This document shows, in pieces, positions 45,575-48,015 of a stretch of 64,000 nucleotides of DNA. Origin of the DNA: Streptomyces sp. Edi4 (lineage in GTDB: Bacteria; Actinomycetota; Actinomycetes; Streptomycetales; Streptomycetaceae); the NCBI RefSeq assembly GCF_040253615.1, contig NZ_JBEJGY010000004.1:1984001-2048000 (forward strand), given 5' to 3'. Each line of letters starts with the position of its first letter. Position 1 is the first letter of the stretch. Position numbers and translations under genes: made by a program. The notes under the pieces were generated by a model, which was not told the DNA's origin, searched no databases, and saw nothing but the letters and a program-made list of their open reading frames with translations.

Positions 45575-46084
45575 TCACCTGCCGGGTGTCGGGGAGGGCG
45601 TGGCGGGCTTGCGGGGGCGCGCGGCCGGGGGGTGGCGGCGGGGCTGGCGCGCGGTGGCCTGGTTCTGCGCCACGGGCAGTGGGGACGGTTCGGCCGCTTC
45701 GGCGGCCGAGGGGTCACCGGCCGGGGCGGGGACGCCCTTGACGGTGCCGTCGGGGCCCAGGAAGACGGGGCTGCCGCCGGGGACCATGCCGAGGTCGCCG
45801 GCCCGGCGGGCGAGCGCGTCGGGGGCCGAGAGATCGTCCACGTCGCGCTGGAGCGCCTGCTGTTCGTCGGTGAGGTCGGTGGTCTGCCTGCGGTACTCAC
45901 TGAGCTTGAACGAGCCTTCGTTCAGGGCCGAGTTGAGCACCAGGAGCGTGATGAGACCGCCGCCGAGCAGCGCGACGACGAGGAGCACGAACGGGGTGCG
46001 GGCGGCGCTGTTGGCCCCCTGCGACGGCATCAGCCTGCCGAGCCGCGCGGCGGTGCCGCGCAGCTGCCTGGCCGGTTTGCTCAC
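45575..46084 (-). CDS. ftsL: FtsL-like septum protein
   Basis: A 169-aa bitopic protein. One membrane helix ([21 protein letters not shown]) is followed by a short coiled coil ([28 protein letters not shown]) and a long Pro/Ala/Arg-rich extracytoplasmic tail. Sequence similarity in FtsL proteins is low; position between rsmH and ftsI and this topology define it. GTG 46084 overlaps the rsmH stop as GTGA. Confidence 0.9.
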
Positions 46085-47031
46085 ACGTCCTCCCTGATCC
46101 GCTGGGCCCCTCGGAGCCGGGCGGGGGCCGCGCGCCGGTTCTCGGCGACCTCCTCCTCCGTGGGAAGTTCGGCGCCGCGGGTGAGGAGCTTCAGGCGCGG
46201 CTGGTAGCGCTCGGGGACCACCGGGAGCCCGGGCGGCGCGGTGTTGGCGGCGCCGGCCGCGAACACCTGCTTGACGATGCGGTCCTCCAGGGACTGGTAG
46301 GAGAGGACCACGACCCGGCCGCCCACCGCGACGGCCCCGACGGCGGCGGGGATCGCCCGTTCCACACTGGCGAGTTCGCCGTTGACCTCGATGCGCAGGG
46401 CCTGGAAGGTGCGCTTGGCGGGGTTGCCGCCGGTGCGCTTGGCGGCCTGCGGCAGCGCGTCGCGGATCAGCTCCACCAGCCGGGCGCTGTTGGTGAACGG
46501 TTCCTTCTCGCGCTCGCGGACGATCGCCGAGACGATCCGCTTGGCCTGCTTCTCCTCGCCGTACGCCCGCAGGATCCGCACGAGTTCACCGGGCGGGTAG
46601 GTGTTGAGCACTTCGGCGGCGCTCAGTCCCACCGACTGGTCCATCCGCATGTCCAGCGGTGCGTCCTGGGCGTAGGCGAAGCCGCGGTCGGCCTCGTCGA
46701 GCTGCATCGAGGAGACGCCGAGGTCGAACAGGACGCCCTGGACGCGCGGGACGCCGAGCCGTTCCAGCACGTCGGGGAGCTCGTCGTAGACGGCGTGCAC
46801 CAAGGTGGCGCGCTCTCCGAAGGGGGCCAGACGCTCGCCGGACAGGCGCAGGGCCTCCTTGTCGCGGTCCAGGGCGATCAGGCGCACATGGGGGAACTGG
46901 GTGAGCAGGGCCTCGCTGTGGCCGCCGAGGCCGAGGGTGCAGTCGACGACGACCGCTCCCGGCTCGGTCAGGGCAGGCGCCAACATGTCCAAGCATCGCT
47001 GGAGCATCACCGGGACGTGTCGCTGGCTCAA
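46081..47031 (-). CDS. rsmH: 16S rRNA (cytosine-1402-N4)-methyltransferase
   Basis: A 316-aa methyltransferase (formerly MraW) that modifies C1402 in the ribosomal P site. [13 protein letters not shown] begins the conserved core; SAM-binding motif is [16 protein letters not shown], followed by [22 protein letters not shown] and [17 protein letters not shown]. The start is probably TTG 47031 (protein M-SQRHVPVM) with GAGAGGG upstream. It is the first gene of the dcw operon. Confidence 0.93.
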
Positions 47032-47257
47032 AGCCGCCCTCTCAAGGATCCGGCACCGCCGCGCGTACGCCCCGGATCCCCGCTGCCCCGCCGACGGGGC
47101 GGACCGCTGGCGCCGGGAAAGGGGCGTCAGCCGACCGGAGGGCGGGAGGAGGCCGAGCCGTACGTGCGCCGCGCACGCGGGTGAACGTATGGTCCGGGAG
47201 GCCGTGCTTCCCGGAAGAATGGGGTCGCGCAAGGCGGGAGAGCGTGTGTCACGCCTC

Positions 47258-47297
47258 CCACTTCGCGCCACTTTAGTCCACTCGTCCCTTGGGTCAA
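47258..47297 (-). promoter_or_regulatory. dcw operon promoter with three AGTGG direct repeats (MraZ-box-like)
   Basis: On the minus strand, TTGACC (47292-47297) and TAAAGT (47270-47275) form a promoter with a 16-bp spacer. Overlapping the -10 are three copies of AGTGG (complement CCACT at 47258-47262, 47268-47272, 47278-47282) spaced exactly 10 bp apart. MraZ proteins bind such G-rich direct repeats in front of mraW in other bacteria. No mraZ gene lies in this window. The rest of 47032-47523 shows nothing else I can name. Confidence 0.6.
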
Positions 47298-47523
47298 TCA
47301 ACCCTCCAGCGCGCCGCCGGGCACTTTTTTCACTCGTCCGGGTGTGTCCCGATGAGGCCTGTGGGGTACCTCACAGATGCCCGAGTTGACGCTCTTTTTC
47401 CGGCCCCGGGACGCGACGGGGAGATCAACGGCGGCTACCGTCATATACATGTCGACTCCTGCGCACATACCGGCGGAGGCTCCTGCCCAGCGTCCGCACC
47501 TGACCCTCGAGAGCGGGGGTTCG

Positions 47524-48015
47524 GTGACCGACCGTCTGGTCGAGGCGAACCGCCACTACGCGGCCGCCTTCACCGACCCCGGCATGGACGCCCGTCCCGT
47601 CCTGCGGGTCGCCGTCGTGGCGTGCATGGACGCCCGGCTCGACCTGCACGCCGCCCTCGGTCTCGAACTCGGCGACTGCCACACCATCCGCAACGCGGGC
47701 GGCGTGGTCACCGACGACGTGATCCGGTCCCTCACCATCAGCCAGCGCGCGCTGGGCACCTCCAGCGTCATGCTGGTGCACCACACGGGCTGCGGCATGG
47801 AAACCCTCACCGAGGACTTCCGGCACGATCTGGAGGTCGAGGTGGGCCAGCGCCCGGTCTGGGCCGTCGAGTCGTTCCGCGACGCCGACCAGGACGTACG
47901 CCAGTCGATGCGGCGGGTGCGGACCTCTCCGTTCCTGTTGCACGTGGACGACGTCCGCGGCTTCGTCTTCGACGTGACCACGGGTCTTCTGCGGGAGATC
48001 GACCCCGCCGGCTGA
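47524..48015 (+). CDS. Beta-carbonic anhydrase
   Basis: A 163-aa enzyme interconverting CO2 and bicarbonate. Zinc ligands are C34 (ACMDAR, with the D36-R38 dyad), H87 and C90 (HHTGCG). Length and ligand spacing match the short mycobacterial type Rv1284. I chose GTG 47524 because the protein then begins VTDRLVEAN; an in-frame ATG at 47449 would add 25 unsupported residues. The gene is divergent from rsmH. Confidence 0.92.
   Translation: MTDRLVEANRHYAAAFTDPGMDARPVLRVAVVACMDARLDLHAALGLELGDCHTIRNAGGVVTDDVIRSLTISQRALGTSSVMLVHHTGCGMETLTEDFRHDLEVEVGQRPVWAVESFRDADQDVRQSMRRVRTSPFLLHVDDVRGFVFDVTTGLLREIDPAG

Follow-up and report, generated by a model that had tools for sequence, protein, structure and literature searches.

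Streptomyces sp. Edi4 carries three AGTGG direct repeats in the predicted promoter of rsmH at the head of its dcw operon, and these are best explained as a fossil operator of MraZ, of which the half overlapping the promoter was kept, probably as core promoter sequence (probability about two in three). The repeats are homologous and syntenic to the MraZ boxes that precede mraZ in related actinomycetes, MraZ itself is absent, and the box has decayed unevenly across Streptomyces. Few bacterial regulators are as conserved as MraZ, and Streptomyces divides mostly at sporulation. A MraZ box without MraZ is a natural experiment which separates MraZ bases from promoter bases within an operator, and the retained box allows a direct test of whether the head promoter of dcw in Streptomyces is unregulated or controlled by a replacement. 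Neither the loss of mraZ in Streptomyces nor a retained box was described in the papers open to searching, a body from which most subscription papers are excluded.

The triple repeat and the rsmH promoter

The window, i.e. the whole 64,000-nt stretch of DNA analysed, contained AGTGGACTAAAGTGGCGCGAAGTGG on the minus strand (47282-47258), which read AGTGG-N5-AGTGG-N5-AGTGG with zero mismatches and so had the minimum of three GTGG-type direct repeats, at a 10-bp period, that marks a MraZ box (47258-47282). Its units were AGTGGACTAA, AGTGGCGCGA and AGTGGGAGGC. On the same strand, TTGACC (-35 element, 47292-47297) and TAAAGT (-10 element, 47270-47275), separated by 16 nt, formed the only sigma-70-like promoter in 47030-47460, and no such promoter appeared in 50 shuffles. 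Repeat 1 (47278-47282, minus strand) was located in the spacer between the two elements and gave GTGGAC together with the following AC, repeat 2 (47268-47272, minus strand) overlapped the last bases of the -10 element, and repeat 3 (47258-47262, minus strand) fell at the predicted transcription start. Three AGTGG units at 10-bp spacing over the -10 element of an rsmH promoter, as the initial annotation had described them, were thus confirmed exactly, the promoter being a predicted one. TTGACC-16-TAAAGT would be a housekeeping-type promoter with the old operator inside, and we infer that rsmH transcription starts at about 47263.

The promoter (47297-47270) stood before rsmH (mraW; 46081-47031, minus strand, TTG start at 47031), the first gene of the dcw operon here, whose product matched PF01795 (E 8.5e-111), with an ftsI-type PBP gene downstream. 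A beta-carbonic anhydrase gene (PF00484; 47452-48015, plus strand, with an inferred start position) was divergent from it. Neither a mapped start nor a regulator of Streptomyces rsmH was found in the literature searched.

The exact triple pattern occurred once in the 8.3-Mb genome. A second exact copy, sought genome-wide as the sign of a regulon, was not found, and near-matches (one with 1 mismatch and ten with 2) were about as frequent as those of a reversed-pattern control. The identical 25-mer was present in 19 of 296 Streptomyces genomes, the form with three AGTGG units being uncommon.

MraZ boxes and rsmH leaders of related actinomycetes

Before mraZ in Catenulispora, Actinoplanes, Kribbella, Jiangella, Kibdelosporangium, Nanopelagicales and others, GTGG-type repeats spanned the -10 element at 10-bp intervals. 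The neutral anchor GTGG..TA...T was present within 250 bp upstream of mraZ in 54 of 56 loci of mraZ-bearing actinomycetes; in these 54, a further GTGG was found one unit downstream in all, two units downstream in 31 and one unit upstream in 37. The triple score was above all 60 shuffles in 54 of the 56 loci.

Three mraZ-bearing loci of the same family, G446, G493 and L174 ('Streptomyces sp. DvalAA-14'), contained TTGACCG...GTGGAGTAAAGTGGCGCGAAGTGG, then mraZ (TIGR00242, 132 bits in G446), a leader of mraW-RNA type and rsmH. The window had the same gene order with mraZ missing, and its box sequence was nearly the same. The mraZ promoters of G446, G493, L174 and L176 (Streptomycetaceae and Catenulisporaceae) were homologous to that of the window in promoter and box and in the same register, with similar flanks, but in these loci mraZ was intact. 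From a reading of the upstream sequence, the beta-carbonic anhydrase gene was also located upstream of the box in G493 (locus L061), which further resembled the window in the leader before rsmH. The proposal that the repeats are a MraZ box is therefore borne out by descent, since sequence, 10-bp period, promoter register and neighbourhood are common to the mraZ boxes of relatives. One difference was observed in the units: G at unit position 6 was 91-97% conserved in mraZ-bearing actinomycetes, whose full unit is GTGGnG, while only repeat 2 of the window kept it (GTGGCG), repeat 1 being GTGGAC and repeat 3 GTGGGA.

Downstream of the box in the window, about 88 nt of unrecognised sequence were followed by a 66-nt leader match and then by rsmH. 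This mraW-RNA-like block (47104-47169, minus strand) was homologous to the segment between the mraZ stop and rsmH of mraZ-bearing relatives, with 83% identity over 66 nt to the segment after the mraZ stop in L061 (blastn, E 5e-16). No mraZ coding remnant was detectable between box and rsmH. The layout and the homology together indicate that mraZ once stood between operator and leader and has been removed. The mraW RNA (RF01746) was called in L061 and L183; the window leader reached a sub-threshold 16.5 bits against RF01746 in a short-range search, and an Rfam search at E 0.5 over 46500-47700 gave no match.

The leader contained a hairpin at 47100-47137 (minus strand), in which 7 of 16 consensus pairs were changed on both sides in at least one Streptomyces sequence, and CUCGGCCUCCUCCCGC within 47100-47169 was invariant across the Streptomyces alignment. 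A CCUCCU in the leader could pair with a Shine-Dalgarno sequence, which, if true, would suit a leader controlling its own 16S rRNA methyltransferase.

Loss of mraZ in Streptomyces and its relatives

A survey of the class found mraZ in 91 of 95 genera (189 of 216 genomes); such complete genomes as were listed without the gene belonged to the Streptomyces group. The strong MraZ matches in the order all came from genera other than Streptomyces, and mraZ was not found in about 275 sampled Streptomyces. The initial annotation was right that no mraZ adjoins rsmH in the window, where the locus contained none. Because no cognate MraZ was found in the Edi4 genome either, the site was classed as a former (orphan) MraZ box and not as a working one.

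Kitasatospora and Streptacidiphilus (L172, L173, L167 and L166) also had no mraZ next to rsmH. In an RsmH tree, which is built on a single protein and has mostly weak inner branches, these two genera grouped together (99/98) outside the group of Streptomyces and mraZ-bearing genera (96/93). From this topology at least two losses of mraZ follow, and the line of Kitasatospora and Streptacidiphilus appears to have lost the gene separately from Streptomyces. The fates after the loss differed, since Streptacidiphilus retained GTGGAGTAGAGTGACG, while the rsmH promoters of Kitasatospora were without GTGG units; GTGG is thus not needed for rsmH transcription in general.

Uneven decay of the box across Streptomyces

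Changes were counted by parsimony on a tree of rsmH coding sequences for 133 non-redundant Streptomyces promoters, and the comparison set was made of 33 in-register mraZ-bearing loci, their register being partly chosen by repeat score. The GTGG of repeat 1 was kept in 122 of the 133 Streptomyces loci against 33 of 33 in the comparison set. The full GTGG of repeat 2 was found in 20 of 133 against 33 of 33; GTG was kept in most Streptomyces, but A had replaced G as the fourth base in 81% of them, with 14 changes at this site. For repeat 3, GTGG was present in 28 of 133 loci against 30 of 33, the latter value being inflated by the choice of register (31 of 54 with the neutral anchor). Position 6 of the unit in repeat 1 was G in 97% of mraZ-bearing loci and C in 99% of Streptomyces, and C at positions 6 and 15 was newly fixed in Streptomyces.

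Site by site, GTGGAC had 1, 0, 1, 2, 2 and 1 changes, TAAAGT had 0-6 per site with its T, A, G and T positions invariant, and the G, A and last C of TTGACC never changed in 129-133 Streptomyces loci. The leading A of repeat 1 was free (22 changes, neighbouring spacer positions having mostly 14-32), the GTGG of repeat 3 had 7-13 changes per site, and the downstream flank had about 35 per site. Positions 14, 22, 23 and 24, MraZ-specific bases with 0 changes in the in-register mraZ-bearing loci, had 14, 13, 12 and 8 in Streptomyces. Free variation of the repeats among relatives, which the initial annotation had named as a refutation, was thus seen in part: repeat 3, the fourth base of repeat 2 and the A of repeat 1 vary, but GTGGAC-TAAAGT-G.CG, which overlaps the promoter, barely changes. 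With tight constraint on the promoter-overlapping half and a loosening elsewhere, the box is not evolving as an operator.

Two groups departed from this pattern. Loci of the S. griseus type (L128, L130, L137, L138 and others) had the original TTGATTGA about ten bases too far upstream and TCGATC at the -35 position, and repeat 3 is now GTTACC in this group. A clade like S. katrae (type of L125, L133 and L144) had TTGCAC or GTGCAC in place of GTGGAC and was the chief case in which repeat 1 escaped the constraint.

Explanations of the retained box

In the ancestor, MraZ would have occupied the GTGG units, spaced by one helical turn, as a multimeric ring that obstructed RNA polymerase at the overlapping promoter and so repressed mraZ-rsmH and the downstream genes. 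In the Streptomyces line mraZ was lost from between the promoter and the rsmH leader, which left an operator without its repressor, and the promoter would now run without MraZ. Selection has retained the half GTGGAC-TAAAGT-GnCG, most likely as core promoter sequence. The upstream repeat, repeat 3 and two single bases, the sixth of repeat 1 and the fourth of repeat 2, would be free to decay, and the Edi4 genome belongs to the minority in which they have not yet done so.

Several observations fit a core promoter less well. GTGGAC at -18 to -13 is outside the classical hexamers and yet almost invariant, with no obvious reason in promoter selection, and the almost invariant CG at -4/-3 is likewise beyond the consensus hexamers. 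The C newly fixed at positions 6 and 15 looks like new constraint and not only like leftover sequence, and the rsmH promoters of Kitasatospora have no GTGG. Most simply, GTGGAC and CG would have been absorbed into the core promoter; alternatively, they would now be read by another protein.

Such a takeover is rather unlikely; after the loss of mraZ, a different oligomeric DNA-binding protein would have adopted the surviving repeats, chiefly GTGGAC-N4-GTG, as an operator specific to dcw in Streptomyces. It would account for why GTGGAC in the spacer and C15-G16 past the -10 element, the two newly fixed bases among them, are so strongly constrained, and for acholeplasmas a comparable exchange of MraZ for a non-orthologous protein was proposed (PMC5138195). 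However, the repeat character was not kept: repeat 3 is gone in about 80% of loci, repeat 2 has a different fourth base in about 80%, and one Streptomyces clade has TTGCAC for GTGGAC. With one mismatch allowed, the genome still contained the 13-mer GTGGACTAAAGTG at this site only, which would make the protein a regulator of a single site; this argues against a regulon, not against a dedicated regulator. That the orphan operator still works as a switch, on which an unrelated oligomeric regulator dedicated to dcw sets division-gene expression through the GTGGAC/GTG repeats, is slightly less likely again. If true, it would control the division genes in hyphae that grow long without dividing.

It is quite improbable that the response regulator MtrA controls Streptomyces dcw directly through the box region. 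Two points speak for MtrA: in Dietzia it acts as a repressor bound to the mraZ promoter (PMC9602371), and in most Streptomyces repeat 2 is GTGAC, matching the half-site GTnAC (PMC5650626, PMC13189361). The Streptomyces MtrA site, as the latter two papers describe it, consists of two half-sites, GTnACC-N5-GTnAC, with an 11-bp period, and no such pair was present in 47258-47297, where the window has 10-bp spacing, GTGGC instead of GTGAC and no second half-site in register. The same accounts, as far as accessible, do not name rsmH or dcw for Streptomyces MtrA.

A live box served by an unlinked MraZ, as the initial annotation had suggested, has very little chance of being right. The sequence and spacing of the repeats fit MraZ, and the genome did give a weak match to PF02381 (20 bits, where the cut-off is 23), but this was the C-terminal tail of an ABC-transporter ATPase, a single AbrB-like stretch and not the two tandem domains of the MraZ protein of about 140-160 aa, so that it belonged to neither PF02381 nor TIGR00242. 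The weak PF02381 matches inspected in other Streptomyces, Kitasatospora and Streptacidiphilus were tails of the same type, and the PF02381 search revealed no other MraZ candidate in this 99.99% complete genome. With mraZ missing also from the sampled Streptomyces, the suggestion is refuted as far as the assembly and the PF02381 model reach. This ATPase of Streptomycetaceae (L001:34-1620, with equivalents in L062, L063 and L257-L262) carried one AbrB/MraZ-like segment at its end, LDRAGRLQLPAEYTxAL..., a source of false MraZ matches that could be a degenerate half-domain for dimerisation or DNA binding.

The MerR-like BldC, a head-to-tail oligomer on direct repeats, does bind repeats about one turn apart in Streptomyces promoters (PMC5859096), but it is scarcely credible as the protein that binds this box and was rejected by motif, since its unit is an AT-rich AATTXXXX(C) repeated about every 9 bp (PMC5859096), while the GTGG units are rich in G, recur every 10 bp and are also those that precede mraZ in relatives. 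WhiA was set aside: a GACAC is present downstream of the box, in the start region, but the sequence there changes within the genus as fast as the flank does, and the WhiA paper gave an ftsW-specific site inside dcw and did not mention mraW or rsmH. Chance repetition in G-rich DNA has practically no probability: about one such triple per 64-kb window would be expected at 3 mismatches, but the one here has none and is unique in the genome, its score (15/15, the best in the 420-bp upstream region) exceeded the maximum of 13 in 1000 dinucleotide shuffles, and place and sequence are homologous to the mraZ operators of relatives, in a position common to mraZ promoters across the class, so a chance origin was ruled out.

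Comparison with known MraZ systems

MraZ is a dcw operon repressor which binds direct repeats at the head promoter (PMC5282649, PMC8475190). The boxes of E. coli (PMC8475190) and Mollicutes are three GTGG-type direct repeats, one per helical turn, over the dcw head promoter, and the same arrangement was found here. For the Mollicutes site, (AAAGTGKN3)3 (PMC5282649), repeat 2 with its flank, AAAGTGGCGC, was an exact fit. Unlike these systems, Streptomyces sp. Edi4 has mraZ neither in the operon nor in the genome, and the box is decaying across the genus. A parallel is found in acholeplasmas, where MraZ was lost, as in Streptomyces, from an otherwise kept dcw operon (PMC5138195). There, replacement by a non-orthologous protein was proposed and the available part of the report describes no retained MraZ box, whereas in Streptomyces sp. 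Edi4 the box has been retained.
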